Shown here in pieces: positions 18,252 through 63,951 of a stretch of 64,000 bases of DNA; position 1 is the first letter of the stretch, and each line of letters begins with the position of its first letter. The notes beneath the pieces were generated by a model that did not search any database, was not told where the DNA came from, and saw only the letters and a list, made by a program, of their open reading frames with translations. Source of the stretch: Pyropia yezoensis (Eukaryota > Rhodophyta > Bangiophyceae > Bangiales > Bangiaceae). The position numbers and the translations under genes are program-made. The stretch spans positions 29,662,063 through 29,726,062 of the forward strand of contig CM020619.1 of the NCBI GenBank assembly GCA_009829735.1, read 5' to 3'.

Positions 18252-18550
18252 CTCCACAAGAGTCACGTGGAGTCAACCAAAACGACCAAACGGTGTCCAG
18301 AGTCGGGGATCGTCAGCTAGGGAGTTCCTAGAGCACGTTCCACCCCTCCACCTGCCTCAAGGAAGGCGGTGAGGTTTCCCGAAACTCCGGGTCTCCCACC
18401 AAGACTCACGGTGGCCAACCTCGTCGCCCAGCGAACGCTCGGAACGTAGGCGAGTCGATCGTGTCACCGGAAGTCTCGGTGCCGAAGGGGGAGAGGGGCC
18501 AACTTGGTCCCGTCTCCGGTCAAGGGAGGTACCAAAGTCGATATCCTCTC

Positions 18551-18568
18551 CCCCGCTGATCCACCAAC
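18551..18568 (-). promoter_or_regulatory. Primer-binding site of element C
   Basis: On the minus strand GTTGGTGGATCAGCGGGG directly follows the 5' LTR. TGGTGGATCAGCGGGG is complementary to a tRNA 3' end finishing CCGCUGAUCCACCA. It differs at two positions from the site used by B and D, so it probably uses a different tRNA. Confidence 0.75.
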
Positions 18569-19104: not shown

Positions 19105-19109
19105 CTCCC

Positions 19110-25272: not shown

Positions 25273-25280
25273 CCTTCCTC

Positions 25281-27350
25281 TTACTCGTTTCCCGCCCTTG
25301 GTAGGGTGCTGTCCGCCGGGACATCCGGCTGAGGAGGTGCCCCCTCGACGGCCAGTACTCCACCTGGAGCTGGCTGCCTACCCGGTGCGGGTCCGGGTGC
25401 TCGGGCGGGATACCCCCCGGTGGATGCCTTGCGTTGCGCCGCTGCCCGCCGAGACTCCTCGGGGATGAGTGGGCAGGAAGACACCCAGTGCTGGGGATCC
25501 CCACACAACATACACCCGGACGTGCCGGTCCCCCCTTGAGGTCGCATCGGGGTAGCCCCGTAGCTACGGTTGCCTCCCTCGGGCGCCCGAGTGCCTGCTC
25601 CCTGGTAGGCCTTGGGTCCTTGGGTCAACCGGAACATGGACTCCCCCAACCGGTTGGGTCGGCCCGCAATCTGCGGAGGTGCCTCCGTGCGCACCGCCCA
25701 TGTTGGCAAGGGTTGGTGAGGGTTACCCGTCACCGGGGAGTACCCCGTAGTCCGCACATACGGGACGCGCCGTCCCGTTCCTTCGTTGACCTGGAACTGG
25801 GTTCCAGCCGGGGCGATGTACGCTACCGTACCGTGTTCATCAATCACCGGCGTCGCCGGTAGCAACAGGTGGCCCTGTTGGTCGACTAGAGGGTCATCCT
25901 CACCAATAGGGGTATGTTCGGTCGCCACCAGTACTGGTGCGGCCTTACGTTCCACCTTCTCTTGCCTCGGTACCGGGGTAAGACTGGGCTTGCCTCCCTC
26001 ACCCTTGGGCTTCGGGGCCAAGGCACACTCCGGGTGTAGAACCCGGTAGGCGTCCCCTAGGGACTTGCACATATGCATCAGTCGACTGAAGTTCGTCCGT
26101 GCCGTGTTGGCGCCCCGTGCGGATATCCGCACGTAGTTGGGTACTCCTGCGAACAGGATGGCCCGTAGCTCCCCTTCTCCGAGGAGCTTCCCCAGCTCGT
26201 AGTCGAGCTCTTGGATCCGGCGTCCAAACATCTCCTCATCCTCCCAGGACTGGGCGGTGGCAGTGCGAAGGGCCCGATAGTGGTCCTCGCACTTGTCCTC
26301 ACTGAGGTAGCTGCTCAGCAGCTCCTTCAATATCCCACGGTAATCCATGGGGGTGGCCGCGACCCTCATTCCCGGCATCGGGGATGCCTGGCGAAGAATG
26401 CCTCGCACCCGTTCATCAACAAAGAACGGGAGGATCTCCAGGGCCAGCCCCTCGTTAACGAGCGCCTTGTCTGCGGCTGCCTTGAAGCTAGTCAAGAAGC
26501 CGATGACTGCCAACGGGCGTCCGTTCGGCCCCCCGAACATAGGGACTCCCTTCATAAGGGTCTGCATAGAGCGGATCGCCCGATGCGACGTATTACGCAT
26601 CGATTCCGATACGGTGGTAGAGCGGTCCTCCAAACGATAACGTTCCGGAGTAAGAACCGACCGGAAGACCTCGTTGACGATCTCCGTGTCAGCGTCCTGG
26701 ATATCCAGTCGCTTAGCCAGTTGATGAGCGAACTCATCGGACTCCATCCGCTTCAGTAGGCTCGCAGTTACCTGCGCGGTCATAGCTTCCACCACTGAAG
26801 ATGGTACTTCAGGCGTCGGCACCTCGGGAACCCGAGTTGCCTGGCCTCCTTCGTCGTGGGGGTACTGCGAGAGGGTACCCCCTCCCCCAATAACCGACTC
26901 TCCCCCGGCGTACGTATCCGCCGTGTCGTGTCCGCGGAGTCCGCTTCGGGTGCTCCGAGCGTATCGCTCCGTGTGACTCCGTTCCAATTCTGCCGACGAG
27001 TCGGACCCATACCCCATTGTGTCCGGGGGTTGTCCAGGAGTAGCAACACCGGGGTTGACCCTGGTGGACTCCGAAAGTAGTCCGGCCGGTTCGAACCGTA
27101 CCGGTGTGGGAGGAACACGACGGGGTCCCGTCGTGTGCCGTGTTGACATCAACACTGCCATTGCGTCCTCCATCCGATCTTGACGGGCGTCGAGCCCGGA
27201 AAACCGGGCCTCGATGCGGGCCAATGATGCCATCAGGGAATCCCCTGGTGAAGGAGGCGGCGGAGTGAGGCCGGTCGACGACAGTTGAGGCGGGCCCCCG
27301 CCTCCTGCCGTCCGAGCCGTGCCAAACGTCGATCCGGCACCGGAAAGCAT
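25281..27350 (-). CDS. gag: Element D Gag (about 689 aa)
   Basis: The first ATG is at 27350. The same frame is open back to a GTG at 27470 with a TGA just upstream, so up to 40 more residues are possible with a non-ATG start. The N-terminal half is low-complexity Pro/Gly/Thr. A capsid-like core follows (about 26700-26000), with NEVFRSVLTPERYRLEDRS and YEL-rich helices. A zinc knuckle CMLCGDPQHWVSSC lies near the C-terminus (about 25490-25530), then a Pro-rich tail. It is more distant from the Gag of B and C than those two are from each other. It ends in TAA, one codon after GGGAAAC. Confidence 0.87.
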   Translation of the reverse strand: MLSGAGSTFGTARTAGGGGPPQLSSTGLTPPPPSPGDSLMASLARIEARFSGLDARQDRMEDAMAVLMSTRHTTGPRRVPPTPVRFEPAGLLSESTRVNPGVATPGQPPDTMGYGSDSSAELERSHTERYARSTRSGLRGHDTADTYAGGESVIGGGGTLSQYPHDEGGQATRVPEVPTPEVPSSVVEAMTAQVTASLLKRMESDEFAHQLAKRLDIQDADTEIVNEVFRSVLTPERYRLEDRSTTVSESMRNTSHRAIRSMQTLMKGVPMFGGPNGRPLAVIGFLTSFKAAADKALVNEGLALEILPFFVDERVRGILRQASPMPGMRVAATPMDYRGILKELLSSYLSEDKCEDHYRALRTATAQSWEDEEMFGRRIQELDYELGKLLGEGELRAILFAGVPNYVRISARGANTARTNFSRLMHMCKSLGDAYRVLHPECALAPKPKGEGGKPSLTPVPRQEKVERKAAPVLVATEHTPIGEDDPLVDQQGHLLLPATPVIDEHGTVAYIAPAGTQFQVNEGTGRRVPYVRTTGYSPVTGNPHQPLPTWAVRTEAPPQIAGRPNRLGESMFRLTQGPKAYQGAGTRAPEGGNRSYGATPMRPQGGTGTSGCMLCGDPQHWVSSCPLIPEESRRAAAQRKASTGGYPARAPGPAPGRQPAPGGVLAVEGAPPQPDVPADSTLPRAGNE
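25287..25293 (-). promoter_or_regulatory. Predicted -1 frameshift heptamer GGGAAAC (element D)
   Basis: In the gag frame G-GGA-AAC is followed by GAG TAA (stop 25281-25283). The -1 frame is open through the site and runs into pol. Same sequence and placement as in B and C. Confidence 0.8.
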
Positions 27351-27671
27351 TGGCGTCTCAATGTTATCGATCGGGTTCCCGATCCCGGTTCCCGTAGTCA
27401 CCTCCGGGGTCGGCGTCGACGCCGATCCGTCATCTTGAACGTTCCCCGTCTCTTGGGTAGAAATGGTCACAATCAGTCAACCGACGTATCAATCACCACG
27501 AACAAGAGAGCGAGGGGGTAGATTGGGGAGAGTAACAGTAGATCACAGTCACAGGTAAAATCTCAACACAATCGATCAGGTCGCAACACCACGAGTACAA
27601 GAAAAGGACCAGATCCCTATCCGTGTGCCAGGGCCGAAGACGGCGTCACCACAAGGGTGACGGAAACCCGT

Positions 27672-28944: not shown

Positions 28945-28950
28945 TACCTA

Positions 28951-40792: not shown

Positions 40793-40824
<32 letters not shown>

Positions 40825-47413: not shown

Positions 47414-47882
47414 TGTGGCAAAAACCACTAGCACACACGGCACCCAAGTTGGGGCGGTGTGCTAGGGCTGCCTCCCGTGTCGGGGGAACCGGAAGAAGTG
47501 CAAGTCGCACACACTCTGTCCCTGTTGTGGGGCAAACCCCCCACGGACAAACAAGAGGATGGTGTGTGGTCCAACAGTTTCTTGGTCGGGACGGGGACGC
47601 AGGGCCAAGCCCCGCTGTCCCTCCCCTTATCCCCCCAGGGTCCCCTCAGAATCTCGCCACTCAGAATCTCCCACCCCAGCACCTGCCCACCGGGCCACAC
47701 GAAAATTCAAGACGATAAATGCAGAAAACCCTCAAATCCAAGTTGGATTTACTACTAAGCTAACTATCCCAAACTTAGGGAATATGGACCCAAATGCAGG
47801 GGGAGGAACGGATCAGGCTAGTGGCCTGCCGCCCCTTGCATGGCACGTGTTGCCCCCCCACCTGGGGGTCAATACTGCCACA
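47414..47882 (-). repeat. Element B 3' LTR (469 bp)
   Basis: The terminal repeats TGTGGCA and TGCCACA are perfect inverted ends. The copy at 56322-56790 differs only by a few substitutions and two compensating one-base indels. Confidence 0.95.
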
Positions 47883-47895
47883 CTCCCCTCTCCTC
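47883..47895 (-). promoter_or_regulatory. Polypurine tract of element B
   Basis: GAGGAGAGGGGAG on the minus strand, directly before the 3' LTR. Confidence 0.7.
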
Positions 47896-48220: not shown

Positions 48221-50194
48221 ATGGCGACTCCGGGAGTGGAGACGGACTCTCTTGACGAGCGCATGGAGGACACCTCCTACGGGGCAGCACCCGCCGGGAC
48301 TTCCGGCGGGGGCTCCGCGATCGCTCCGGGGGACGGGACTCCCGCGTCGCCCGGCTTTGGGTTGACGGCGGGGTCTCCCCCGGAGGCGGGACAAGTTGTC
48401 CCGCGTGAGGCCTTGGGGCAGTGGTTTTACCCCGTTTGGCCTCTCTATGAGGAGGGGCTGACTGTTCTTCGCTGTGGCCGACTTGGCGCAGCGATGGGCC
48501 GGGTATGGGACCGCCTACGGGAGAAGTATCCCCGTAGGTTCGGGTTCCCTGCCGGCTTCAGGACGGACCAGTTTGCCTTCCTGGACGATGAGGAGGTTGA
48601 GAACGTTCAGCGTGCCAAGGCCATGGTGGACCGCGGGGGAACTATCCCGGGTCCCGGCGACTTGCCGACCTTCACGTGGGACGCTGTGGCAACTCGCCCA
48701 CCGTACCTCCACGAGGCCGATCCGCACACTCATCACTTTGATGTGCGGATGGAGAAAGACTTCCGGCGAGGTCCCTACTTGGTGACCTCGGCTCAACTTG
48801 AGTTTCCTCAACAGTCTGCTGCCAGTAAGGAGCAGTACTATCCGAAGAAGCCCGAGTGGTGGCCTCAAGTTGAGGTCCCCTACGGGTTCCCGGCGTTGTT
48901 GCCACGGTTGCTTGACCACTTCGGCTCCGTCATGTTGACGGCTGCCCCTGATCACCTGGTGTGGGCCATGTTGGCCACCCAGTGGCTCCTCGAGGTCATG
49001 TCGACCTGGGTGTCCTGTGTTCAGCGGCGGGGGATGCTCTGGCATCTCCCCCTCCGGCTCCTCCAAGGTTTGGAACAGCTCACCCCTCAGCTAGTTGCTG
49101 AGGGGTGCTCATCAGGACAACTCACTCTACTTGAGGAGATGCTCCGGCTCCATAAGTTTATCGAGTGGGAGAGCATTGAGCACAAGTTGCGCCGCCCCAC
49201 TCGTGGGCCCAAGGACGATGGCGCACTTCGCCAGTTCGTGTGGGTCGCTCGTGAACTTCACGACGGCCGTGTGGTCCTACGAGAGGGGTTGGGCATCGGG
49301 GACTACCCGTATGCCCCGGGGGTGGATCGCCACACTGCGCCACCCCCGGACAAGCCCATAGTTATGGCCGTGCCGTCCTATGATGACCATGTGACTCAAC
49401 CCACTGCGGGGGCCCCAAGTCGGGGTCGCAGTTACACCCGGGTACCGCCACCTCGGCGTGCCCCTCCGCTTCCTCCTGTTCCTTTCCAGCCTCACGGGAA
49501 CATCCCGATTAGCGTGGCCGTTGAGTCGTCCACCCCGGTGTCCCCCAACTTGGGGGCCACCCTCCTGACGGTATACCCCAAGTTGGTGTTACCGCCCCCG
49601 CCTCTAACCTCAGAGATGATGATCACCACGTTGGTGCGCACCATTTCCTGGTTGGCCGCGTCGACCGCAACCCTACAGAATTCCGAGACTCCTCAACTTG
49701 AGGAGCGCGTTCGTACTGCAGTGGCGACCGCGAGTTGCGAGTCGGTGGCGGAGTTTATGACAGCCGAGTTGGCTCGAATTGGGGCTATTATGCCCCAGCC
49801 AGCCCCACTTGGGCGTGGCAAACGTCGCGCGAGCCGGGCATACTCGCCTCCTCGCCGTCGTCGCCGACACTCGCGGCGCTCTCCTTCCGTATCGGAAGAC
49901 GAGTTGTCTTACTCCGTTTCGGAGTCCTCTACCCCGTCGGAGACGGAGTCTGTCCAGCGTCTGCGTCGCAAACTTGCGCGCAAGACCAGGCAGAAGAGTG
50001 GCCACGGTCGGCGCCACTTGCGCGACCGTGAGGGGCGCGACGGTTCCGACTTGGAGCCGCCGCCCCCTCCAGCAAGTGGAGACCGTTATCGGCGTGGGTC
50101 TCGCCGCTCGCCTCCACGTGAGGGCGAGGGCCGTGGAGTGGGAGAGTCTAGCATGCGTGCCTTGTTGGTAGCTGCCTTTGTTGTGAGAGTGTGA
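48221..50194 (+). CDS. Element B antisense ORF (aORF, 657 aa)
   Basis: Lies between pol and the 3' LTR on the strand opposite to gag-pol, ending 81 bp from the pol stop. The start ATG 48221 (MATPGVETDSLDE) is preferred; the frame is open further upstream. A block at residues 214-245 (VEVPYGFPALLPRLLDHFGSV) and following (RGMLWHLPLRLLQGLEQL, then VVLREGLGIGDYPYAPGV) corresponds to the element C aORF (VEVPCGFPARIPLLVAYFGSV, RGYLWHLP, LFLREGLG, PYAEGV). A Pro-rich linker follows. The C-terminal about 110 residues are basic and rich in Arg-Ser (SPPRRRRRHSRRSPS), like a nuclear or RNA-binding tail. No membrane segment or known domain was recognised. Function unknown; transcription would have to start near the 3' LTR. 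Confidence 0.8.
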   Translation: MATPGVETDSLDERMEDTSYGAAPAGTSGGGSAIAPGDGTPASPGFGLTAGSPPEAGQVVPREALGQWFYPVWPLYEEGLTVLRCGRLGAAMGRVWDRLREKYPRRFGFPAGFRTDQFAFLDDEEVENVQRAKAMVDRGGTIPGPGDLPTFTWDAVATRPPYLHEADPHTHHFDVRMEKDFRRGPYLVTSAQLEFPQQSAASKEQYYPKKPEWWPQVEVPYGFPALLPRLLDHFGSVMLTAAPDHLVWAMLATQWLLEVMSTWVSCVQRRGMLWHLPLRLLQGLEQLTPQLVAEGCSSGQLTLLEEMLRLHKFIEWESIEHKLRRPTRGPKDDGALRQFVWVARELHDGRVVLREGLGIGDYPYAPGVDRHTAPPPDKPIVMAVPSYDDHVTQPTAGAPSRGRSYTRVPPPRRAPPLPPVPFQPHGNIPISVAVESSTPVSPNLGATLLTVYPKLVLPPPPLTSEMMITTLVRTISWLAASTATLQNSETPQLEERVRTAVATASCESVAEFMTAELARIGAIMPQPAPLGRGKRRASRAYSPPRRRRRHSRRSPSVSEDELSYSVSESSTPSETESVQRLRRKLARKTRQKSGHGRRHLRDREGRDGSDLEPPPPPASGDRYRRGSRRSPPREGEGRGVGESSMRALLVAAFVVRV

Positions 50195-50275
50195 GGGTTA
50201 GGGCTGTAGTTAAAAGCCACTCTGCGTACCACTTCGACTTGAAGCACTCTCTTGGCACTGTTGCTCGGCCTTCCC

Positions 50276-53200
50276 TTACGTTGAGGGAGGGCTGTTAGGG
50301 TCTATCTCATTCCGGGCACAGTACGCCCGGACCTTCTCAGCGGGAAGGTCCTCCACATACTCCCACGTATCATCCTTGGCTTTGTAGCCAAACCAACGCA
50401 CCCTCAACATGAGGCGGTCAGTGTCCTCATCCCATCCGTGGTCGATGAACTTATCGAACACGTACTCCTGCGGGCCCTGTTTGGCCGCAGGCAGTGAGGG
50501 GAGGCGCCACGCTTCCAAAGCACGCGCCCAAGCTGGGTCGCCTGCAGGCGGTGGTGCAACTTTGACCACGTCCTGTCCGTTCACTGTGCGGACCCCATCG
50601 TCACTTTCGATGGTGAAGCGCCGCCCATCAGTACGAAGGACCTGGTACGGTCCCTTCGTCTGGAATACCAGCTTACCCCCAGTTGGGGTGTGCGAGTGTA
50701 CCAGCACCCAGTCACTCTGCTCGGGGACATGTTTAGCATTGCGCACCTTTTCGTCAAAGGTACGCTTGTAGCGCTTTTGTGCTTTGTCCATCTCAGCCCT
50801 GACTTTAGGGATGAGGTTTTCAAGCCTAGCGGCGAACTCCGCCTTACTCTCAGTAGGAGTAGGCGTACTGCCACCATCCTCCCTAGTTGGGAGCGACCGC
50901 CGCACGGCAATAGACCGCACGCGACGGGGGGTCACGAAAGCGAGGGGTACTTCCCCTGTAGATGAGTGAACCTGCGAATTGTAGGCAGTAGTAAGGATAG
51001 AAATGTATTAGTCCCACTTCTTCACGTGCTCACTCACATAGTGGCGCAGCTGCCTAACAATAGTTTTGTTGAAGCGCTCCACCTGCCCATTAGTTTGTGG
51101 GTGGTAGGGGGTGGCATAGTTTGCCTTAACCCCCAACATATCCAGCACTCCCTGAAACAGTACAGACGCAAATTGCGGTCCATTGTCCGATAGTGTACTA
51201 TCTGGGATGCCATACGCGGCAACCCAGTGATCTAGGAAGGCTGACACGACCGACATGGCCGTGATCTCTGCCAGTGGGATCGCTCGCGTAAGTTTCGTGA
51301 AGCGGTCACAGATGACCAGGAGGTACTGGTTGCCCTCCTCGGTCACGGGCAGTGGCCCAAGGATGTCCATCGCCAACGCGGCGAAGGGCTCCTTGGCCGG
51401 GAAAAATAGCATAGCCGTAGTAGGCCGCCGTTCCATCAGACGATTCTGTGCACAACTTGTGCAGGCAGCCACCCAACTGTAGATGTCCACCACCATGGAC
51501 GGCCAGTAGTACCTGGTCCTCAGGGTCTGGTACAGTTTACTAGACCCCAGGTGTCCACCCGTGGGAGCGTTGTGCTCCCTCTCAAGGATACTGTCCTTGA
51601 GGGATGCGGGGACGACAAGTTGTTCGGTCCCCTGGAATACCCCCCTCCTCATGAGGAGGCCATCGTCTCCCAGAAAGAAACGCGTCTCTACCACTGTATC
51701 CAGTATATCCCTCTGCGACTTGCAGAAGGGATCCTCGGCCTGGGCCTTCACCACCTCGTCCAGGGACAGGGGCAAGTACTTCTTGTTCCCTGGCGCCTCG
51801 GGGTTCAACGCCTGACCCGAGCGCGTGACTACCCCCACGATGGGGATGTCCTCATCGACTGGGTTAGTGTCCAGCCCCTCGGTAGGTACCCGAGAGAGGC
51901 CGTCGGCAAGGGCATGTTGCCTGCCAGGTCGGTATTCAATGTCAAAGTTGAAGGGTGCCAGTCGCACCCTCCACCGGTTGAGACGAGTGTTCGTACAGTC
52001 CGTCTTAAAGATGAACTGCAACGCGCGGTGGTCACAGCGGATGAGGAACTTCTCACCCTCCAGGTAGTGACGAAGTGACGTCACCGCCCACACCACTGCG
52101 AGTCCTTCCAACTCGGTGACTCCGTAGTTCTTCTCGGCCGAGTTCAGCCCCTTACTAAAGTATCCCACCGGCAAGTACTCCTTGTCCGGCTGCTGCTGAA
52201 GCAACACACAACCAAGTTGGTCGTAGCTAGCGTCCACATCCAGGATGTAGTGGCCTCCCAACCTGGGAATAGCCAAGATGGGGGGCTTCAGCAGAAGGTC
52301 CCGAAGAGTCTCAAAGGATTCCTGCTCCACCCGACTTGGGGGAGGCAGGTTCTTCGGTAGCGTTGAGCTCACTAGCTCATTCAACGGCTTCGCCACCTTG
52401 GCGAAGCCCTTGGTGAAACGTCGGTACACGTTACACATCCCGAGGAAGCTCCTCATCTGGGTCTGGGTCCGGGGGTACTGAGCCTTAAGAATGGCCCTCA
52501 AGTTCTTCTCGTTAACACTGAGACGCCCCGGATGGACAACATGTCCCAAGTACTCCACCTCTTGAGTAAAGAGGTGGCACTTACTCGCCTTCAGTGACAC
52601 ACCGGCGTCAGCAAGTAGCTTGAACACCTGGCCAAGATGGCCAATGTGTTCCTCCGGACTTCGGGAGAACACAATGATATCGTCTAGGTACACAAGACAG
52701 ATCTGCCACCGTACTCCGGCCAGAATCATGTCCATAGCGCGCTGGAAAGTTGCCGGCGCGTTACACAGACCAAACGGTAGACGCTTGCACTGGTAGGTAC
52801 CACAGTGACAGGTAAAGGTAGTTTTATGCCTGTCCTCCGGGGCAATGGGAATTTGCCAGTACCCCGCGTTACAGTTCAGGGTAGAGAACACGTTTGCCTC
52901 CCCCAGAGAGTCCAGACAGTCATCCATCCTAGGTAGGGGATAACTGTCCTTCACCGTGCTCTCGTTGAGCTTACGGTAGTCGATACAAAACCGGGGGGTC
53001 CCATCAACTTTGGGGACGATAACCACCGGACTCGCCCACTCGGCGTTGCTGGCCTCGATCACATCGAGGGCCTCCATGCGAGCAACTTGCTCCTTAACGA
53101 GGGCCCTTGAACGAGGTCCTCCCCTATACGGTTGTTGGCGTATAGGGGGTGCACCGGGCTTCAACTCGATCCGGTGTTGGGTGGCTCTCATGAGTCCCAA

Positions 53201-54259
53201 TTGACCATCCCACAACTTGTGATATTGGTCCAAGAGGCGTTCAACTTGAACCCTCAACCTGGGGGGGACACCCTCCATGTTCACATGGGGTCGAGGAGAG
53301 GCGGCCGACTTGGCTTGATGCTTCTCCTTTCCGGACTTCGGGTCGCTACTTGTGCCCGCGTTGAGGGTGACCGCTACTACCGGTCCCTCGTGTTGGTCGA
53401 TATAGCCGAACTTGGCTCCCGACTTGAAGTACTTGGGCGTCGGGCTGAGGTTCATCACCTGGATCCTCCACGGGACTCCGGCTTTGGAGTCCATCGTGCC
53501 AAGGGCAACATGCACTTGGTGCTTGCGAGCAAGACGGGGGTGAGGGTGCACCAACCCGTTCCCCGTAAAATCAGTTACAACATCAACGTGCGCCACCGAG
53601 TTGGGGGGCAACGTGACTTTACGGGCTAGACGCAGGGTAGCAGTAAACCCTTCCCTCACAGAGCAAACAGGCTTCGACTGTGAGACTGTCACAGGAGCCA
53701 CAGACTTTCCCTTACCAAGGATGGGGATAGTCTCCCCATTCATCAACTTGACCCAGTACTCAGGGCCACAAATCAAAGGCACTTGTGTAACAACATAAGG
53801 GGTACCCAGAAGCAGGGGTACCGATATATTCTCAACTACGCCATAGGTCACGTCGACCTCATGGGTCCCCAACCTAGTTGGTAGGGTCACGGCACCAACG
53901 ATGGGAAGTACCCCACCATTGATGTCAATCATATGGTCAGCTTTGGACCTCCAGCGTTGGAGCTTCACCTCCTTTGGTAATAGCGACTTGCGTATCAAGG
54001 AGGCTCCTGACCCGGTATCAAGTACGATACGGGTACAGCATGCACGGCCGGGGGCAAGTTGCACCCGTCCAGCCACCTGGAAGTTCTCACCCGTCAGCAC
54101 CGCGATGACCCGACGTGGGCTTACGTTCTTGGGGAGTCCTACCCGAGGTGGGCGGACTCCCTTAGGTCGCCGCAGTATCCGGCACGGTTGGTTCGTCCTC
54201 CTGGCCCACTTGGCCGAGGGTGCCGTTGTGAGCTTCGGACGACCAGCCCCAACGGTCAT
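50276..54259 (-). CDS. pol: Element B Pol polyprotein with one internal stop (1327 codons)
   Basis: ATG 54259 overlaps the gag TGA; expression is expected by -1 shift at 54262-54268. Protease: LDTGSGASLIRKS. RT: FCIDYRKLN, SYPLPRMDDCLDSLG, and YLDDIIVFS. RNase H: ILDVDASYDQLGCVLL, RCDHRALQ, HALADGLSR. Integrase: HNAPTGGHLGSS with CTSCAQNR, then AMDILGPLP, LSDNGPQF and GQVERFNK. A TAA at 51008-51010 interrupts the frame after HVKKWD; the same frame goes on without a break as YISILTTAYNSQVHSS and matches elements C and D. The C-terminal region has a GGKLVF/GPYQVLRTDGRR block and a chromodomain-like end (RVRWFGYKAKDDTWEYVEDL). The stop is therefore a point mutation. Confidence 0.92.
51008..51010 (-). 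other. Nonsense codon TAA in element B pol
   Basis: Frame and similarity continue on both sides, so one codon change accounts for the break. It removes the end of integrase and the chromodomain. Confidence 0.75.
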
Positions 54260-56202
54260 TCGTTTCCCGCCGACTTGGCGTCCGAATCTGAGGGCGGGGA
54301 GGAAGACGACGAGTCCGAGGACGACGTGTCCGCCTCCTCCGCCGAGGGTGTGGCGACCGCAACGACCGGTCGAGACCCACCCTCGCGGCGTGAACGTACT
54401 TCGTTCGTAGCCGACTTTTTACTCGCATTCCTAACAAGTTGTTGGATGCGTTTACTCAACTTGGGGCAATCATATGCCCAGTGACCATCGGAGTTGCAGT
54501 TCCAACACCGATGGTCCGTCCCGGGAGGGGTCTTCCCAACTGGGGAAGACGAAGGGATACCCTGGGAAGTTCCCACGGCAGCTACCACCCTCTCCTTGCG
54601 GATTCGGCGTGCCTCTCTCAACTCTCTGGCCTGGCGCGCCTCCTCCCGTTCCTTGGCCAACTCGGCCTGACGCTCCTGGCGTTGTTCCTCCCGCAACTTG
54701 CGGTAGGCCTCGCCTCTGCGATAGGCGAACCTGGCCAACTCGGCCAGGGTCGCCCGGGCAGTGTTATGCTCCCGGGTCTCCATCCGGACTGACCAATGGA
54801 GTCCCTCCACAAACCGACTCTTCACCACAGCTTGTTGATGAAGAAACCCACAAAGATTGTTGAGCTTACGGACTCGCTCCGCAAAGGACAACTCGTCCTC
54901 CGCCTCTTCCTGATGGGCTTGCGTAAACTCCTCGACTTGAGAAGCCAACGCTGCCTCATCAACCATGGCTCTCAACAACCAGTTGACGAGCTCCAAATAG
55001 GACGTCACCTCCCCAGCGCCTCCACTTGAGGAGCTGGGCATGACGGACATAAGTTCTGTCCGTAGGTCGCCCTTCGTAAACTCCTGTAGCATGTAAAAAG
55101 CCATGCCTTCACTTATGGCATTGTCGTCACAGGCTTTTGTGAAACGACGTAGGAACTCAAAGACACGGAGGGGGGGAGTTCCGTCCCACTCCGCTTTGTG
55201 CCCAAAAGAATGAAGTGCATTCTTCTTGGCACGGCCCATGGCTCGGGCCTGGTCAGGACCATACGCCACCGACTTGTTGTGGAGGGCGTAGGTCTCACAG
55301 TCAAAGATCCTCTGGTAGACCGGGTTGGCTACCTGGATCTTGGGCGGCACCTCACGTTGAGGGAACAGCCGCTGTGGCACTGGGGTAAGTTCACTCTCAG
55401 TGCCTGTAGTCCGGCGCGGCGCGCTTGGTGTAGCCGCCGGCGTTTCCGGGGGGAACTCCCCCGTGAAGGGCGTACGCCCCACCGAGTATGGTGTGGCTCC
55501 CTCGTTGGGAGTCACAGGTGTCGCCCCCAGTTCGGGGCGACCAGAGATAGGCGTAAGGGGGGATTCCCCCTGCGCCTGCGGGCTCGAAAGCCCCAATCCG
55601 GTTTGGACATTAAGGCCATCTGGCAAACTCGCCACAATCTGATTCAGAATAGTATTCGTCATCGTGACCACCAGGTCCGGCAAAGTCTGCCGCAACACAT
55701 TGGTCGCCTCCCGACGGACAGTTTCCGCGAGGAGTGGATTGACGACTCCAGTTGAGTCTCGGTCCGCCTCCGGGAGTCCACCTGAGGGGTAACCACGTTC
55801 CTCAGGGGTCTCAACCGGGGGCATGGGCGCGAGCCCATCGCCGACCAACGGAGGTCCACCGTCCTCCGAAAGCCTAGTTGGCGACGACTCCAAGCCAAAG
55901 TTGGCTCCAACCCGAGTGGAACCCGCGGGGACAGTCCTCACCCCTTGGGACGTTCCCGTTGAGTATACCACACGGTGGCCAGACTTCGGCCCACCCACAT
56001 CAGAAGTGTCACCCGAGTGAACTCCCGACTGAGTCGGGGTGGCCTGTTGCCCGCCCGTACTTCCAGTCCTGCTGGCTTGAGGGACCTCTAGTCCCTCTGC
56101 GACCCCAGGTAAACCCACCTGTGTCTCACCAGTATTCAAAGGCACTGAAGTACGTGCGTCACCCGTGTACTCCCCGGACGACGGGGGGTCCGAGCTAGCC
56201 AT
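54256..56202 (-). CDS. gag: Element B Gag (648 aa)
   Basis: First ATG at 56202 (MASSDPPSSGEY); the frame also opens from a GTG at 56226. Long Pro/Ser/Gly-rich N-terminal region, then the capsid-like core: FDCETYALHNKSVAY, EWDGTPPLRVFEFLRRF, ACDDNAISEGMAFYML and GEVTSYLELVNWLLR, all shared with element C Gag. A charged coiled-coil stretch (REEQRQERQAELAKEREEAR) follows, then the zinc knuckle CWNCNSDGHWAYDC and a Ser/Asp-rich tail ending SAGNE. It ends in TGA one codon after GGGAAAC. Confidence 0.9.
   Translation of the reverse strand: MASSDPPSSGEYTGDARTSVPLNTGETQVGLPGVAEGLEVPQASRTGSTGGQQATPTQSGVHSGDTSDVGGPKSGHRVVYSTGTSQGVRTVPAGSTRVGANFGLESSPTRLSEDGGPPLVGDGLAPMPPVETPEERGYPSGGLPEADRDSTGVVNPLLAETVRREATNVLRQTLPDLVVTMTNTILNQIVASLPDGLNVQTGLGLSSPQAQGESPLTPISGRPELGATPVTPNEGATPYSVGRTPFTGEFPPETPAATPSAPRRTTGTESELTPVPQRLFPQREVPPKIQVANPVYQRIFDCETYALHNKSVAYGPDQARAMGRAKKNALHSFGHKAEWDGTPPLRVFEFLRRFTKACDDNAISEGMAFYMLQEFTKGDLRTELMSVMPSSSSGGAGEVTSYLELVNWLLRAMVDEAALASQVEEFTQAHQEEAEDELSFAERVRKLNNLCGFLHQQAVVKSRFVEGLHWSVRMETREHNTARATLAELARFAYRRGEAYRKLREEQRQERQAELAKEREEARQARELREARRIRKERVVAAVGTSQGIPSSSPVGKTPPGTDHRCWNCNSDGHWAYDCPKLSKRIQQLVRNASKKSATNEVRSRREGGSRPVVAVATPSAEEADTSSSDSSSSSPPSDSDAKSAGNE
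54262..54268 (-). promoter_or_regulatory. Predicted -1 frameshift heptamer GGGAAAC (element B)
   Basis: G-GGA-AAC in gag frame followed by GAA TGA (stop 54256-54258). The pol ATG overlaps the stop in the -1 frame. Confidence 0.8.
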
Positions 56203-56303
56203 GTTGGCTGACGATCCGTATGACACGGTCCAAGACCACCGTTCCTCTGAGACAGAGGGCCCCCTACACCCGGGTGCACCCGGAGGTAAAGTTTACCTCT
56301 ATC

Positions 56304-56321
56304 CCCTGCTGCTCCACCAAA
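56304..56321 (-). promoter_or_regulatory. Primer-binding site of element B
   Basis: TTTGGTGGAGCAGCAGGG on the minus strand next to the 5' LTR. TGGTGGAGCAGCAGGGG is the same as in element D. Confidence 0.8.
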
Positions 56322-56790
56322 TGTGGCAAAAACCACTAGCACACACGGCACCCAAGTTGGGGCGGTGTGCTAGGGCTGCCTCCCGTGTCGGGGAACCGGA
56401 AGAAGCGCAAGTCGCACACACTCTGTCCCTGTTGTGGGGCAAACCCCCCACGGACAAACAAGAGGATGGTGTGTGGTCCAACAGTTTCTTGGTCGGGACG
56501 GGGACGCAGGGCCAAGCCCCGCTGTCCCTCCCCTTATCCCCCCAGGGTCCACTCAGAATCTCGCCACTCAGAATCTCCCACCCCAGCACCTGCCCACCGG
56601 GCCACACGAAAATTCAAGACGATAAATGCAGAAAACCCTCAAATCCAAGTTGGATTTTACTACTAAGCTAACTATCCCAAACTTAGGGAATATGGACCCA
56701 AATGCAGGGGGAGGAACGGATCAGGCTAGTGGCCTGCCGCCCCTTGCATGGCACGTGTTGCCCCCCTACCTGGGGGTCAATACTGCCACA
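56322..56790 (-). repeat. Element B 5' LTR (469 bp)
   Basis: Partner of 47414-47882. It is also represented in reverse complement, incompletely, at 12582-12840. Confidence 0.95.
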
Positions 56791-57017
56791 CACTGGACGC
56801 CGTCCCTTTCCGTCGTCTTGTTCGAGGACTGCGCCAATAGCATACCCGCTGGCATCAGTAGACACGTAGATGGGATATCGTTTGTCAAACGGCCTTAGTA
56901 CCGGTGCACTTGTTGTCAGAGTCCGCAGCTGCTCGAAGGCTTTTTGGGGCATCCGGCGTCCACTCAAAGTCGACCTTCCCCGTCAACCTCGTAAGAGGGG
57001 TAGCAACTGCGGCCATT
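56791..57017 (-). mobile_element. pol: Element A pol fragment (RT/RNase H border), up to the gap
   Basis: Reverse complement of 12357-12581, with a correct frame (FDKRYPIYVSTDASGY) where the other copy has indels. It includes the TSD copy cactg at 56791-56795. It is the same locus as 12357-12581, not a second copy, if the contig is inverted. Confidence 0.9.
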
Positions 57018-57517
57018 NNNNNNNNNNNNNNNNNNNNNNNNNNNNNNNNNNNNNNNNNNNNNNNNNNNNNNNNNNNNNNNNNNNNNNNNNNNNNNNNNNN
57101 NNNNNNNNNNNNNNNNNNNNNNNNNNNNNNNNNNNNNNNNNNNNNNNNNNNNNNNNNNNNNNNNNNNNNNNNNNNNNNNNNNNNNNNNNNNNNNNNNNNN
57201 NNNNNNNNNNNNNNNNNNNNNNNNNNNNNNNNNNNNNNNNNNNNNNNNNNNNNNNNNNNNNNNNNNNNNNNNNNNNNNNNNNNNNNNNNNNNNNNNNNNN
57301 NNNNNNNNNNNNNNNNNNNNNNNNNNNNNNNNNNNNNNNNNNNNNNNNNNNNNNNNNNNNNNNNNNNNNNNNNNNNNNNNNNNNNNNNNNNNNNNNNNNN
57401 NNNNNNNNNNNNNNNNNNNNNNNNNNNNNNNNNNNNNNNNNNNNNNNNNNNNNNNNNNNNNNNNNNNNNNNNNNNNNNNNNNNNNNNNNNNNNNNNNNNN
57501 NNNNNNNNNNNNNNNNN
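57018..57517. other. Scaffold gap of exactly 500 N
   Basis: Second fixed-size placeholder. The sequence to its right (57518-58386) overlaps the reverse complement of 13341-14210. Confidence 0.95.
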
Positions 57518-57519
57518 AT

Positions 57520-59268
57520 CGATGGCGACTCTGCCTCGCTGAGTTCGATTATGATGTTGAATATCGGCCAGGCCCGAAGCATGCGGTTGCGGACGCGTTG
57601 TCTCGCATACCGACGGATGGGAAAGACACTTCCCCTATCCCTGAGGAACTCCCTCATGTGGCAGTGACCACTCGCTCCGGAACTGTCCTCGACCCGAGGA
57701 TGCCTGGCATGGCCAAATTATTACCCGTGTCTTTGGATGAGTTTGTCCAGGCACAGGAGAGCGACAAACTTTGTCGACGACTCAGGAAGGAGCTCGACCA
57801 GGCTCAACCGACTCGGTTCTTCCTGAATGACAACGGCATACTCTGCCGTAAGGGATATACCCAGGGGGACAAGCAAGTCGTCGTCCCCAAGGAGTTACGC
57901 AAGAGTATCCTCCAACGGGAGCACTCCTCACCGTTGGGTGGACACCCAGGGTCTACGAGGATGTATCAGACCCTACGTAAGAAGTACTATTGGCCATCAC
58001 TCGTGGCTGATGTGTACGGATATGTAGCCGCATGCGCGACTTGCGCAAAGAATAGACTCATGGAGTCCCGGCAGACTTCTTCCATGAGACTCTTTCCTGC
58101 AACAGAGCCGTTTGCAGCGATAGCAGTGGACTTACTCGGTCCACTACCACGAACACCTGAAGGATATGAGTACCTTCTGGTGATGTGTGATCGCTTCACT
58201 AAGCTCACACGGGTATCCCCACTCAAGGATATCACAGCCGTGGACGTTCTGAGTGAGTTACTCGACGTCTGGGTTGCCAGTTATGGCATCCCCGACTCTA
58301 TCCTTTCGGATAACGGACCACAGTTTGCGTCCGTCCTGTATCAGGGAGTCATGAAGATGTTGGGGGTGCAGACGAACTTCGCCACCCCTTACCATCCCCA
58401 GACTAATGGGCAGGTGGAACGATTCAACAGGACTCTAGTGCGCCAGTTGCGTCACTATGTCCATGACCATGTAGTCACATGGGCTCGTTATGCGTCACTA
58501 CTCGTGACAGCATACAACTCCCAGGTACACAGTAGTACGGGAGAGGCACCGTTTGCCTTCGTCTGCCCCCGACGACTTCCGTCAGTAGCTGTGGAGCGTC
58601 TCACCCAGACAGAGGGTGAGACTTCGACTCAAACACCGAGTCAGGCGAAAGCCTCCCTACTCCAGAGACTGGAGGAGATGATACCCCTTGTCCGGGCTAC
58701 TATGGAGAAGGCCCAAGCCCGTTACAAGAGGTACTTCGATGTCCGAGTCAGACATCGTCGCGATCCGCTCCGAGTTGGAGATTGGATTTATGTTAACTCC
58801 CACGACAATAAGGGAGGGAAATTGGTCTTCAAGACTCTGGGACCATATCACATCCTTAAAACGGATGGACGTCGGTTAACCATCGAGAGTGATGATGGTA
58901 TCCGGACAATAAATGGGAATCACGCGACTCGCGCACCCGAACCCCCAGAGGGAGATCCCGCTTGGGAAAGGGCTTTGCAAGCATGGAAAGTCCCATCCTT
59001 GCCGACCTCTTCCAATAAGCCATTGGAGGCGGTGTTCGACAAGTTTGTCGGGCACGGATATGATGAGTCGGGGCGACTCATGCTCCGAGTCAGGTGGTTC
59101 GGGTATGGACCAACTTCCGACACATGGGAGTTTGTAGAGGACCTACCAGTAGAGAAGGTCCGTAGATACTGCCAGACTGTGGGCATATCTATACGCCGAC
59201 GTAGCACTCGTACGTCGGGGGATGAAGTCCCTGCTCCAAGTCAGAGCAGAGCGGCAAGCCAACCATGA
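57520..59268 (+). CDS. pol: Element C Pol, C-terminal part (end of RNase H, integrase, chromodomain)
   Basis: Open from the gap edge without any break. It starts inside RNase H (RWRLCLAEFDYDVEYRPG, VADALSRIP). Integrase zinc motif: HSSPLGGHPGSTRMY with CATCAKNR. Catalytic triad: AVDLLGPLP, LSDNGPQF and GQVERFNR. Then a GGKLVFKTLGPYHILKTDG block and a chromodomain-like end (LRVRWFGYGPTSDTWEFVEDL). The first about 870 bases repeat 13341-14210 in reverse; this version has the correct frame. Confidence 0.92.
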   Translation, partial: RWRLCLAEFDYDVEYRPGPKHAVADALSRIPTDGKDTSPIPEELPHVAVTTRSGTVLDPRMPGMAKLLPVSLDEFVQAQESDKLCRRLRKELDQAQPTRFFLNDNGILCRKGYTQGDKQVVVPKELRKSILQREHSSPLGGHPGSTRMYQTLRKKYYWPSLVADVYGYVAACATCAKNRLMESRQTSSMRLFPATEPFAAIAVDLLGPLPRTPEGYEYLLVMCDRFTKLTRVSPLKDITAVDVLSELLDVWVASYGIPDSILSDNGPQFASVLYQGVMKMLGVQTNFATPYHPQTNGQVERFNRTLVRQLRHYVHDHVVTWARYASLLVTAYNSQVHSSTGEAPFAFVCPRRLPSVAVERLTQTEGETSTQTPSQAKASLLQRLEEMIPLVRATMEKAQARYKRYFDVRVRHRRDPLRVGDWIYVNSHDNKGGKLVFKTLGPYHILKTDGRRLTIESDDGIRTINGNHATRAPEPPEGDPAWERALQAWKVPSLPTSSNKPLEAVFDKFVGHGYDESGRLMLRVRWFGYGPTSDTWEFVEDLPVEKVRRYCQTVGISIRRRSTRTSGDEVPAPSQSRAASQP

Positions 59269-59396
59269 GTACAAACACATACCATGGTTCTTCAAAGATT
59301 CTCTACTAACAAAGCCGACTATGGCACAATACAAAACGAGAAGAATACCCACCACTCTTCTCACCAAGGAAAGAACAAGTCGTTCGACCGCTGACT

Positions 59397-61313
59397 CTAG
59401 CGTTCCATATGGCCACCCCCACCACTATAGGGACCGCCCGACCACGAACCCCCAGGGTCGTAGGCCGGTAGCGGAGGGGCGTAACCCACTCGGGAGGGCC
59501 CCGGAGTGGAAGCACTGGGAGGGGCCCGCCGACTCGCGGACCCATCCCCGTCGTAAGATAGATGTCCGGAGGTACTCCCTCCGTGACGCGGAAGCTGCTG
59601 CTGAGTCGACAGCAGCCGTTGGACAAACTCGTGTCCAACCGCGAGGCGAGTGACCTCAGCTGCCAATGACTGTCGCGCCGTGGCTGAGTCGCCCGACGCG
59701 AGGAAGTGACTGACACGCCGGGTGACCCAAGCCAACGTGTCAAGGGAGGCCACGAGTGAGGCCTCCACCGTGGCGTCATACATGATGGCTCCCAAGTTGG
59801 GAAGCATCTCGCCAACGCCACGCGCAATCGGCATGGGTACCGGAGTTCGGACCCGTAGCGAACCCAACGCCACGTCGGGGAAGGGCTCGAGGAACTGGAA
59901 GGGTGGAGCCTGAGTCGGCTCCACACCCCCCGAGGTCGGAGTCGCGACCCGCGGGGAAGTCGTCGGCACAGCTCGCCCGCGGCTTCGAGGGGCTCCTCGA
60001 TGAGCACCACGACGAGTCGTCGCCGATGATGTCGCCCACCCAGAGCCAGGGGGCGACGTAGAGGGAGTAACCCCCTCTGCGTAGGGAAGGGAAGAGTCCC
60101 CCAACCCCTCACGCAAGAACAGCTGTCCCTGCACCAGAGTATGGGTGACATGGACGAACTCCCGGGGTGGCTCACTCTCCAACCCCGGCTCTGGACGCTT
60201 GTTGCGGCGGAGGAAGGGTTCCAGCTGCGCCCAATCGAGTCGATTGTGCAGGGTGACCATACCCTTAAGGAGGAACGGAGCCAGGTCCCCCGCGCCCAAG
60301 GCTAACCAGTGGAAGCCAAGGGTTTCCATACCCTCCACCAGAGCCGGTGGGAGGTGCCACAGGTAACCCCGATGGACTACATCGGAGTACCAGCCCCGAG
60401 TCACCACGACCACCCAGTGCGTGGCGAGGTAGGCGAAGACCCGGTTACCCTCCGAGCTGGAGCGTAGCACGGAGCCAAAGTAGGCAACGAGGAGGGGGAT
60501 CCGAGCCGGAAACCCACAAGGTACCTCCACTGTCTCCCACCACCCTGGGAGAAAAGGGTACTGGTGCTCACGCTCCTCCAGAGGTACGTGGGTGAACTCC
60601 ACCCGCGACCCGTGGATGAGGAAGCCCGAGGAGCCCCGGAGTCGGAACTCCTCTCGCACCACGCCGTGTTGGGCGTGGGCGTCCTCTCCGCCCAGGTAGG
60701 GACGGGGAAGGGCACACCACTCGGTAGACACAACCGCGTGGGTGTCGTCGATCTCCTTGTCGCCCGACCCCAAGGCGAGGGAGGTTGACAACGCCTGGAC
60801 TTCAGGCGCGTCCGCCAGGCAGAGTAGCGCTGGTAGGTCGCAGACCACCCCATCAGGTAGAGTCACCTGGTTGGGGTACCGACGAGTCCGGCGGTACCAT
60901 ACGTCGGTCCGCCGTGGCTCGGGGATGATCAAGTAGACATCCTTGAGCTTGCAGTCGGGAAGCTCCCCGACTGACTTGGGAGGCGCCCAGGCTCGGGGCC
61001 CCATAGGAGGACGGGGCCGCGGCGGGAGTAGCAGCCGTGACTCAGGAAGGCGGGGGATGGCAGTCACATCCCCTTCCGCCACCGGGTTGGAAGACCCATC
61101 CCCCGGTGGGACCACGGCCGAGGGGGCAGTAGGAGGTGATGGGGCGGGGACGGCTGAGGCGGCCGCCTCCGACCCTCGCCCGGGACGAGTCGTCTCCATG
61201 GCCGACCCCCGGCTGAGAGACTCCTCAGTCCCGAGGGCCTCCTCTCCCGTCCGTCGCTTGTCCGACAGAGACGTCGGAGACGGGGACAAAGGCCGACTCG
61301 GCTCACCCGCCAT
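59397..61313 (-). CDS. Element C antisense ORF (aORF, 638 aa)
   Basis: Convergent with pol, ending 128 bp from its stop. ATG 61313 (MAGEPSRPLSPS) is preferred because upstream the frame only crosses tandem repeats; an open frame to 61958 would give 853 aa. The N-terminal 110 residues are low complexity. Conserved blocks: VYLIIPEPRRTDVWYRRT and GVVCDLPALL (as in element D), VEVPCGFPARIPLLVAYFGSV at residues 262-282, RGYLWHLPPALVEGMETL and FLREGLGDSSLPYAEGV (as in element B). A Pro-rich linker and a helical C-terminus follow (VEASLVASLDTLAWVTRRV). No signal peptide or membrane helix is evident. Function unknown. Confidence 0.8.
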   Translation of the reverse strand: MAGEPSRPLSPSPTSLSDKRRTGEEALGTEESLSRGSAMETTRPGRGSEAAASAVPAPSPPTAPSAVVPPGDGSSNPVAEGDVTAIPRLPESRLLLPPRPRPPMGPRAWAPPKSVGELPDCKLKDVYLIIPEPRRTDVWYRRTRRYPNQVTLPDGVVCDLPALLCLADAPEVQALSTSLALGSGDKEIDDTHAVVSTEWCALPRPYLGGEDAHAQHGVVREEFRLRGSSGFLIHGSRVEFTHVPLEEREHQYPFLPGWWETVEVPCGFPARIPLLVAYFGSVLRSSSEGNRVFAYLATHWVVVVTRGWYSDVVHRGYLWHLPPALVEGMETLGFHWLALGAGDLAPFLLKGMVTLHNRLDWAQLEPFLRRNKRPEPGLESEPPREFVHVTHTLVQGQLFLREGLGDSSLPYAEGVTPSTSPPGSGWATSSATTRRGAHRGAPRSRGRAVPTTSPRVATPTSGGVEPTQAPPFQFLEPFPDVALGSLRVRTPVPMPIARGVGEMLPNLGAIMYDATVEASLVASLDTLAWVTRRVSHFLASGDSATARQSLAAEVTRLAVGHEFVQRLLSTQQQLPRHGGSTSGHLSYDGDGSASRRAPPSASTPGPSRVGYAPPLPAYDPGGSWSGGPYSGGGGHMER

Positions 61314-61314
61314 C

Positions 61315-61790
61315 ACGCGACCAACCTTGACCGACTCGGTGAGGTTGAGCACGGGGGGGGACACGACCCACACCCCCCACCGACAACGAAGAAGCCCGAC
61401 ACAAGGGGCAGCGCGGGGAAGACACAACCCCGCCAACGAGGACAAAGGGGGGGGAACACGACCCGCTCCCCCTCCGACGACAACCAACCTTGACCGACTC
61501 GGTGAGGTAGAGCAAGGGGGGGGGACACGACCCACACCCCCCACCGACAACGAAGAAGCCCGACACAAGGGGCAGCGCGGGGAAAACACAACCCCGCCGA
61601 CGAAGAGAAGGGGGGGGGAACACGACCCACACCCCCCACCGACAACGAAGAAGCCCGACACAAGGGGCAGCGCGGGGAAAACACAACCCCGCCGACGAAG
61701 AGAAGGGGGGGGGGAACACGACCCGCGCCCCCACCGACAACGAAGACGCCCGACACAGGGGCGGAAGGGGGAAGACACCACCCCAACCAA
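61315..61790. repeat. Tandem repeats of about 95 bp upstream of the element C aORF
   Basis: The core CGACAACGAAGAAGCCCGAC begins at 61381, 61545 and 61640, with a diverged copy at 61735: spacings 164, 95 and 95. The 164-bp step contains an extra CCAACCTTGACCGACTCGGT segment, repeated at 61321 and 61485. Long poly-G runs separate the units. On the aORF strand the array lies between the 3' LTR and the aORF start, where its promoter or leader would be. Confidence 0.7.
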
Positions 61791-62495
61791 CGACACCAAC
61801 CGCACGGCGGGAAGAGACAGACCCGCCGACGCGAGGGAGCAGCGGCGGGAAGGCACACACCCGCCCGCACACACGAAGGGGAGAGAAGACCCCGCACCGG
61901 CGGCCGAGTCCCACCGCCGGCGACCGAGTGCAACACCCCCAACTCGGGGTGCGCACACCCCTCAACCCTGACTAGAAAGGGGGGGAAGGAGTGAGGAACA
62001 CCCCGCAGAGAGCCAGCTGGGGGTGGATCGAGCTGAAGGGGGGGACACAACCCGACCCCCCGAGAGCAACCGTACCCCAACTGAAGGGGCAGGTGCAGGT
62101 CGACGTTCCGAGTGAGAACGTCGACGCCCTACTCCTCCAGTTGAGGGGCAGGGGGTGTGGCGGAGGTACGCCGACACCCAGATTAGGGGGCTCACCCACA
62201 CGTGAGTCCACCCGTGGAGCACCCTGACCAGGTGGGGGACGACTTTCCCCCACACCTGTTTCGCGTGGAGGGGGCTCCTCTACCCAGTGTCAGGGCAGAG
62301 AGCGCACCCCACGGAGAGGGACTGCCTCTCCCGGAGGGCCCCGCCGGACGCGAGTGCAACCCCGGCGTAACCCTGGTGCACGCTAGACGCCAGCGATGCA
62401 CCGTACTTTGCATCTCAACTCGGGAATTGCATCCTCCTCTCCCGGTCACTGCGACTCGCCGCTGATTGGACGTCCACCGGGACGGCTGGACTTTT

Positions 62496-62508
62496 GAGAA
62501 GGGGGAAA
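62496..62508 (+). promoter_or_regulatory. Polypurine tract of element C
   Basis: GAGAAGGGGGAAA directly before the 3' LTR. Confidence 0.75.
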
Positions 62509-63044
62509 TGTGGGAGATTGGGCCGGAATTCGGTACCAATACTTTGAAGATTCGGGTCAAGTGGACCTGACCGGAAGTCGAAATTCACCCGACCCACGAT
62601 GGTGAAACTTCTGACTTCTGGACGGAAATTCGACTAGGACTTCCGACATACTAGAGCAGGGTAATGCTGCTGGTATTTGTTTCTTGGGATTTTTGCACGG
62701 GAGCCAGACGGATTTCTACGCTTTGAGTTCTTTGCATGTGGAGTGATATGATTGGTTTGTTTGAGGGTTCATTTTCTGAGTGTTTTGAGGGGTTGCGTGA
62801 GCGTGTGAGGGTTGATAAGGAGGGACAGCAAGGCGGGGAGGGCCCACCTTGGCTGGCCAAGCAAGAAAACACCGTCTGGCTCCGACACATCTTGTTCGTG
62901 CCTTGGTGAGTGGACCCGCTCACCACACGCAAGTTCCGTGTTCGGCTGTGTGGAGGTGCTTGCTTCCGGTGTCCCAAGTTGGGATATCGGCAATACTCCT
63001 CTTCCTTCCCTGACTCGGGGTTGGTGCTTGGGAGTACTGCTACA
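62509..63044 (+). repeat. Element C 3' LTR (536 bp)
   Basis: Starts TGTGGGAGATTGG, ends GTACTGCTACA. By eye identical to the 5' LTR at 18569-19104. Confidence 0.93.
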
Positions 63045-63951
63045 GGGAGGACTCTCCACGGGGATGCACCAGGTGGAAGTCCACCCGCATACGCCCATCG
63101 GACTCCATCGACTCTTGCACCGTGAGGCCTCGAACCCGAGCCACCAAGTCGGACACCGACATGGCGGGCTGACCCGCCGCCACGGCGACGCCGCCACCCA
63201 ACGGGGCAACCCGGGCAGGACCAGGAAGAATCGGGGGCGCCGGGGGACGCACCACCGGCAGAGGGGCCGACGTCGGAGATTGACGAGGCCGAGGAGGAAG
63301 AAGAAGGGCGGGCGCCCGCCCGGAGTAACTCCCGGAGTCAACCGCCATGGGAGAAGGAGCGTCTTGACCGCTCGACACCCGCGGCACCGCAGGTACGGTA
63401 CCGGCGCCGGCACCACCCGTCGGCGTAGCCCCCGCCGCGGAAGGGGAAGGCACTTGGACAGCCTCCGGAGCCGGAGCCCCGGCCGTGCGGACACCCGCAC
63501 CGTCTTGACCCGCCGCACCGGGTGTCGCACCGCCACCACCACCCGCGTCAACGTCGGGACCGCCTCGAGGAGTCACCGCCCGGACACCCGGACCACCTTG
63601 ACCAGCCGGAGTCGGCTGCGGGTCGCCGCCTCCGCCGCAGGGCGGACCATCTTGAGGTAGCTGCGGTGAGCCGGCACCGGCACCAGGCTCCATCCGGGCA
63701 GCCGGCAGAGAGGGGGTAGAAACCGCCACGCGCGGTTGACCGCCGGGCTGACCTCCGGCCGACGGCACCGTCGTGCCGCTGCACACGGACGACAGTCCTC
63801 CGGCCGACAGACGGACGGACACCGCAGGCTCGTCGTCGTCAGACGAGCTCACCCCGTAACGCGCGGCGTCGGGACCGACAGGCGCGTCGTCCTCCATCTC
63901 CTCCCCGATCAGGAGGTCTTCCTCCTCTTCAAGCACCTGGGGATAGGACAT
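63045..63951 (-). CDS. Element D antisense ORF (aORF), N-terminal part
   Basis: Starts at ATG 63951 (MSYPQVLEEEEDLL); the frame is open to 63981 with a GTG. Acidic N-terminus, then about 220 residues of Gly/Ala/Pro/Val low complexity, then VSDLVARVRGLTVQESM and MRVDFHLVHPRGESS, where element C interrupts it. With one TSD copy removed, the frame passes directly into 19110-20650, giving about 815 aa in total. The start lies near the window end, so the 3' LTR of D should follow shortly after 64000. Confidence 0.75.

Follow-up and report, generated by a model that had tools for sequence, protein, structure and literature searches.

Organization of the locus

The window, meaning the whole 64-kb stretch of Pyropia yezoensis DNA analysed here, holds four Ty3/gypsy elements (A, B, C and D) arranged as two nested pairs. 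Three of them, B, C and D, carry one long open reading frame each (aORF) that is antisense to the element's own gag-pol and convergent, tail to tail, with pol. Element A has a chromodomain and lacks an antisense gene, its pol frame running up to 45573, adjoining the LTR; B appears to sit within A. C is inserted within the antisense gene of D, is flanked by the 5-bp duplication GGGAG and has LTRs identical over 537 bp. B and C are bounded by LTRs, while the 3' LTR side of D runs past the window edge. The features are the following.

7730-8699 and 45561-44592: LTRs of A, 99.1% identical
12841..13340, no strand: scaffold gap of 500 N, bordering the inverted contig on its left
13341..16500, minus strand: C pol, 5' part, reaching the scaffold gap
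16488..18272, minus strand: C gag, zinc knuckle slightly below the cut-off
18568..19104, minus strand: C 5' LTR, identical to 62509-63045 (537 bp); CTCCC at 19105-19109 on the plus strand corresponds to GGGAG
19110..20650, plus strand: D aORF, C-terminal piece, the rest of the D antisense gene
21106..25377, minus strand: D pol, chromodomain-like end at 21109-21390
25281..27476, minus strand: D gag, resembling B gag, with a non-significant zinc knuckle match (E 0.07)
47414..47883, minus strand: B 3' LTR, 98.9% identical to 56322-56791 over 471 aligned positions; duplication CAGTG
48221..50194, plus strand: B aORF, 657 codons
50279..54418, minus strand: B pol, broken by a single in-frame stop near 51010 and carrying a chromodomain at 50279-50461
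54256..56292, minus strand: B gag, CCHC zinc knuckle
56322..56791, minus strand: B 5' LTR, pairing with 47414..47883
57018..57517, no strand: scaffold gap of 500 N, bordering the inverted contig on its right
57518..59268, plus strand: C pol, 3' part, with integrase; weak chromodomain at 59011-59265
59397..61313, minus strand: C aORF, 638 codons
61320..61784, no strand: tandem repeats with periods of 95 and 164 bp, immediately upstream of the C aORF start and on its 3' LTR side
62509..63045, plus strand: C 3' LTR; duplication GGGAG at 63046-63050
63046..63951, minus strand: D aORF, N-terminal piece, cut by the C insertion

Judged by its ends, the contig between the two exact 500-N gaps stands inverted in the scaffold: positions 12357-12840 are the reverse complement of 56532-57017 (99.2%) and positions 13341-14210 that of 57518-58386 (99.7%), both matches reaching the gaps. 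This inversion accounts for the presence of parts of A, C and D on opposite strands and, together with the insertion of C, for the division of the D antisense gene into two pieces. A relative (P0017) is continuous across both pieces, and the site is uninterrupted in 29 of the 30 D loci examined (5 exact, 24 with up to two mismatches), the exception being the window copy. The frame that opens at 18980 begins with about 40 residues read from the antisense strand of the C LTR, which do not belong to D.

The chromodomain is firm in B (Chromo E 1.3e-5, 25.4 bits, above the cut-off of 25.1) and weak in C and D, where the matches fall below that cut-off (E 1.7e-4 and 21.8 bits in C; E 0.008 and 16.6 bits at the chromodomain-like end of D).

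The antisense reading frames and their proteins

An earlier note on this DNA, made from the letters alone, had placed long antisense ORFs in B, C and D, clear of pol. Their coordinates were confirmed, with the N-terminal piece of D ending at 63046, and there is no overlap with pol, the facing stop codons being about 80 bp (B), 128 bp (C) and 455 bp (D) apart. The aORFs of B and C lie between pol and the 3' LTR, and for that of D only the pol side is seen within the window. In seven of the eight B copies sampled the frame has a stop at codon 648 (50162-50164), which the window copy lacks.

In all three proteins a low-complexity N-terminus is followed by a core some 300 residues long, a proline-rich linker and a helical C-terminus, as far as composition and a partial model allow the layout to be drawn. 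The cores of the C and D proteins contain hydrophobic stretches. By a crude hydropathy measure, the maximum over 19 residues is 1.20-1.39 in six of seven proteins and 1.71 in P0014 alone, the usual threshold for a membrane segment being 1.6. Basic clusters were found only in B among the proteins checked, within an RS-rich tail, and this restriction of the basic tail to B is an observation that counts against a trans-acting role. Structure prediction, which the earlier note had proposed as a check, gave a poor model (mean pLDDT 45) that offered no clue to function.

The relatedness of the three proteins, also claimed beforehand, was borne out. BLASTP gave E 4e-46 for B and C (30% identity over 454 aligned columns), 1e-8 for B and D, and 4e-4 for C and D, the last pair giving no match at 1e-3 under other script settings; pairwise identities are 25-30%. 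In profile-against-profile comparison the C and D families matched with E 3e-5 (probability 73%), and a fourth group matched the D family with E 4e-4 (probability 36%). Among the shared blocks, FGSV was found in all three proteins and VEVP-x-GFPA, RG-x-LWHLP and LREGLG in B and C, as described previously; the block given as V-x-CDL in C and D is inexact in D, reading V-V-CDL in C and V-CDL in D. Judging from these matches, the aORF proteins of B, C and D are homologous.

Protein searches with the three aORFs returned 21 further proteins, 1 with B (where the best 8000 candidates were scored), 11 with C and 9 with D. The fourth group (P0014-P0016, from JGI contigs, about 40% identity) is among the 11 relatives from the C search, and every relative with a name is a hypothetical protein from Pyropia vietnamensis. 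The earlier statement that no known domain is recognisable held at the sensitivity used, no significant match being obtained in Pfam, NCBIfam, PHROG or PDB sequences. TRP28 (PF04195) was sought at E values up to 10 in 15 members of one protein set and 10 of another (P0003 being in both) without a match, though a more distant relation may exist; the bZIP domain gave none in Pfam, and no convincing resemblance of the aORF proteins to gag or pol was found.

Copies in the genome and selection on the frame

The aORFs are repeated in the genome together with their elements. That of C was found in at least 70 matches at no fewer than 69 places, 11 of the matches containing stops; that of D in at least 78 matches (a stop in 4); and the core of that of B in at least 136 (a stop in 2). 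At the best-scoring loci, pol adjoins the aORF on the opposite strand in 20 of 20 C, 30 of 30 D and 8 of 8 B cases, and an LTR lies on the other flank in all 20 C and all 8 B loci; among the matches listed, a pol end stands beside 65 of the 69 C aORF places. Both in the window and at these loci, B and C thus have the gene antisense to gag-pol and between pol and the 3' LTR.

For each set of copies, the changes were tested against what its own mutation spectrum (by base and CpG context) would predict. Omega was 0.47 for the C aORF (28 copies, p 2e-9; 133 amino-acid, 129 silent and 3 stop changes), 0.26 for D (30 copies, p 2e-10; 34 amino-acid against 58 silent) and 0.28 for B (8 copies, p 9e-8; 29 against 42), the amino-acid counts being lowered because the loci were mostly chosen as best protein matches (the best 20 of at least 69 for C, 30 of at least 78 for D and 8 of at least 136 for B). 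In the shifted frames the values were 0.93 and 2.94 for C, 2.39 and 2.62 for D, and 1.78 and 1.91 for B. For pol pieces taken from these loci, omega was close to the aORF values, at 0.32 in C (17 of 20 loci) and 0.26 in B. Purifying selection therefore acts on the amino acids and is confined to the aORF frame, which agrees with the earlier proposal that selection retains these frames. That note had named two outcomes that would speak against it, a dN/dS near 1 and a lack of similarity among the three proteins; both were examined and neither was found.

The C copies fall into two clusters (20 and 8 copies), between which the Nei-Gojobori dN/dS is 0.33 and the fixed differences number 7 against 9 (p 0.014). 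Cluster 2 alone, whose 8 copies were reached through lower ranks and include 2 with stops, gave an omega of 0.51, and the variants shared inside cluster 1 gave a pN/pS of 0.75 (4 against 2), too few to weigh. Identity at codon positions 1, 2 and 3 is 0.49, 0.56 and 0.36 between B and C and 0.45, 0.49 and 0.31 between B and D, in an alignment that, being guided by protein, favours positions 1 and 2, and similar values were found in pol and gag.

The region has a GC content of about 63-67%, which favours long frames, and other frames in the C region stay open for 331 and 344 codons, so that chance frames had to be considered. The aORFs (556-657 codons) are nevertheless longer than any frame in 2000 composition shuffles, in which the longest reached 405-475 codons, they are homologous across families, and their selection is frame-specific; these three grounds contradict chance, with hardly any probability left to it. 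The aORFs are protein-coding genes of three related LTR retrotransposon families, convergent with pol and under purifying selection.

Loss of the antisense gene in C derivatives

The integrase end of C gave 150 matches. The analysis took the first 110 and set aside 8 pieces that were short or diverged and 32 matches at 56-62% identity. Among the matches listed, 65 of these 110 pol ends were accompanied by an aORF and 45 were not. Eight of the 45 loci without a listed aORF were examined, and all eight carry deletions: six share the removal of approximately residues 260-629, about 60% of the C aORF, whereas one (L073) retains only about the first 43 residues and another (L068) is devoid of the N-terminal part. 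Across the genome the junction of the common deletion occurs 10 times, 8 times exactly and twice with one mismatch, against none for a reversed-pattern control. The 1346-residue pol frame is present at 7 of these 10 places compared with 13 of 35 aORF-bearing cluster-1 copies (p 0.08).

A single deletion followed by spread would be the simplest account of the shared junction, with local duplication of some copies being possible. Since this lineage lost most of the gene, kept pol and amplified, the C aORF seems to be dispensable in cis, which would mean either that its protein is supplied in trans, or that it is regulatory, or that it is dispensable outright. As an observation on these derivatives, plain dispensability fits them as well as a trans-acting protein does.

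Comparison with known antisense genes

Antisense ORFs between pol and the 3' LTR are known in plants and in a fungus, their function being unsettled (PMC7264820, PMC11963269), and by position the aORFs of B, C and D belong to this class of antisense additional ORFs (aORF-3R). Among the closest systems are the Retand elements of flowering plants, which have a large antisense ORF at the same place, for which a regulatory role has been proposed, and in about half of the elements tandem repeats in the same region, as seen here in C (PMC11963269). The Retand antisense ORF contains TRP28 (PF04195), predicted to be DNA-binding (PMC7264820, PMC11963269), whereas the proteins scanned here gave no TRP28 match; Retand is moreover a non-chromovirus lineage, while the red-algal elements have a chromodomain at the integrase end, firm in B and weaker in C and D. 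On these two differences they are not Retand elements.

The antisense ORFs of Grande (gene23), RIRE2 and PvRetro13 resemble those described here in position, orientation and conservation across copies (PMC7264820), and are unrelated to them as far as Pfam can tell. For Grande gene23 an own promoter and a nuclear product have been demonstrated (PMC7264820), whereas here the promoter is putative. Outside plants, the Boty element of Botrytis cinerea carries an antisense gene, brtn, between pol and the 3' LTR (PMC7264820, PMC8365987); its host is a fungus instead of a red alga, and the likeness is one of position and orientation.

HTLV-1 HBZ is an antisense bZIP protein whose gene lies near the 3' LTR. 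The red-algal genes are like it in being antisense protein genes of an LTR element, situated close to its 3' LTR; however, no bZIP match was obtained with Pfam for their proteins, so that a regulator of the HBZ type was rejected, and their antisense transcription is putative. HTLV antisense genes are mentioned in PMC10186651 and PMC7264820.

No earlier report of antisense ORFs in retrotransposons of Pyropia, Porphyra or other red algae was found among the titles and abstract beginnings of the open-licence PMC papers listed. The aORFs thus represent an apparently new protein family within an arrangement already known, in another element lineage.

Possible function of the antisense proteins

The reading that we favour, with somewhat better than even confidence, is that the aORF encodes a trans-acting accessory or regulatory protein, expressed from its own promoter near the 3' LTR. 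The gene would be driven by a putative promoter lying in the stretch from the aORF start to the 3' LTR or inside the LTR itself, and the protein would act in trans on the nucleic acids of the element or on host control (transcription, silencing or RNA fate). In derivatives without most of the aORF the protein might come from other copies, or it may be regulatory and not a component required in cis. An accessory or regulatory role is preferred because Grande gene23 and Retand provide precedents, because six of the seven proteins are without a clear membrane segment, and because no convincing relation to gag or pol was found. The aORFs are probably tools of the elements themselves, used perhaps for self-control.

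Several other explanations were weighed. The antisense RNA could be the active product, forming double-stranded RNA with gag-pol or interfering with its transcription, the protein being incidental. With stops only 80-455 bp apart, the convergent layout makes read-through and double-stranded RNA plausible, and an RNA role for such ORFs is discussed in PMC7264820; yet selection on amino acids in one frame and the similarity of the B, C and D proteins at 25-30% identity make this account unlikely, while an RNA role could still exist alongside the protein. Capture of a host gene, once, by an ancestor of the elements, with a host-derived activity kept as cargo, is about equally doubtful: the antisense orientation and the lack of gag or pol similarity fit a foreign insertion, but among the 21 proteins found no relative was recognised outside element-like copies.

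The position of the aORF is that of env, and hydrophobic stretches occur in the core of the C and D proteins, which would suit an env-like or particle protein for transfer or packaging. Such a function is nevertheless distinctly less probable, since, by the crude measure used, hydropathy rises above the membrane-segment threshold only in P0014 and the lineage without most of the aORF has spread. The aORF is furthermore antisense in B, C and D, whereas the env-like ORFs of plants are described in the sense direction (PMC7264820), and an env-like third ORF following pol was rejected on this orientation.

Set against the known antisense arrangement, the present case extends it to a distant group of hosts and to another lineage of elements, with a protein family that is apparently unrelated; a repeated origin of the arrangement is thereby suggested. 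More tentatively, and in our judgement with somewhat less than even probability, red-algal chromodomain Ty3/gypsy elements may have independently evolved a trans-acting antisense regulator, from a protein family with no relatives known, that is a public good among copies and is exploited by deletion derivatives that dropped it. If this is true, the antisense strand by the 3' LTR would be a control site that LTR elements invented repeatedly, in red algae as well as in plants, fungi and retroviruses. With the frame-specific estimates of selection and the natural deletion lineages, what the aORF does for its element can be put to the test in a seaweed for which genome and RNA data exist.

Loss of the antisense gene in element C

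A derivative lineage of the Ty3/gypsy element C has lost most of the long antisense gene that lies between pol and the 3' LTR. It is represented by L067, L069-L072 and L074, loci that have the integrase end of C and no listed antisense gene; the common deletion junction (loss of approximately residues 260-629) occurs at 10 places in the genome, and the breakpoint of this deletion is situated within a short shared repeat. Directly upstream of the antisense gene of C there are also tandem repeats, and plant Retand elements are similar in having tandem repeats in a comparable place:

61320-61784, tandem repeats of 95 and 164 bp

State of element B and the presumed primer-binding stretch

The copy of the related element B found in the window has a single in-frame stop in pol, near 51010 and ahead of the integrase end. 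In all seven other copies of B sampled, the antisense gene has a stop at codon 648; this stop is missing from the window's copy, whose reading frame continues for 10 more codons (50162-50194). The presumed primer-binding stretch that follows the 5' LTR is similar in B, C and the third related element, D (TTGGTGGA-CAGC-like; approximately 56320, 18550 and 27660, respectively).

Other features of the window and scaffold arrangement

Two DNA-transposon remnants and several probable host genes were assigned by Pfam matches:

27954-29108, minus strand, Tc3-like transposase HTH remnant (E 4e-12)
43090-44421, minus strand, DDE_Tnp_1_7 remnant (E 7e-8)
34450-35715, plus strand, DUF829, probable host gene
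37224-38051, plus strand, NAD(P)-binding NmrA-like protein, probable host gene
39822-40988, plus strand, RING-finger protein, probable host gene

One contig, bounded on each side by a 500-N gap, has apparently been placed in the scaffold in reverse (12357-13340 and 57018-58386), since the flipped orientation gives overlap with the neighbouring contigs at both of its ends.
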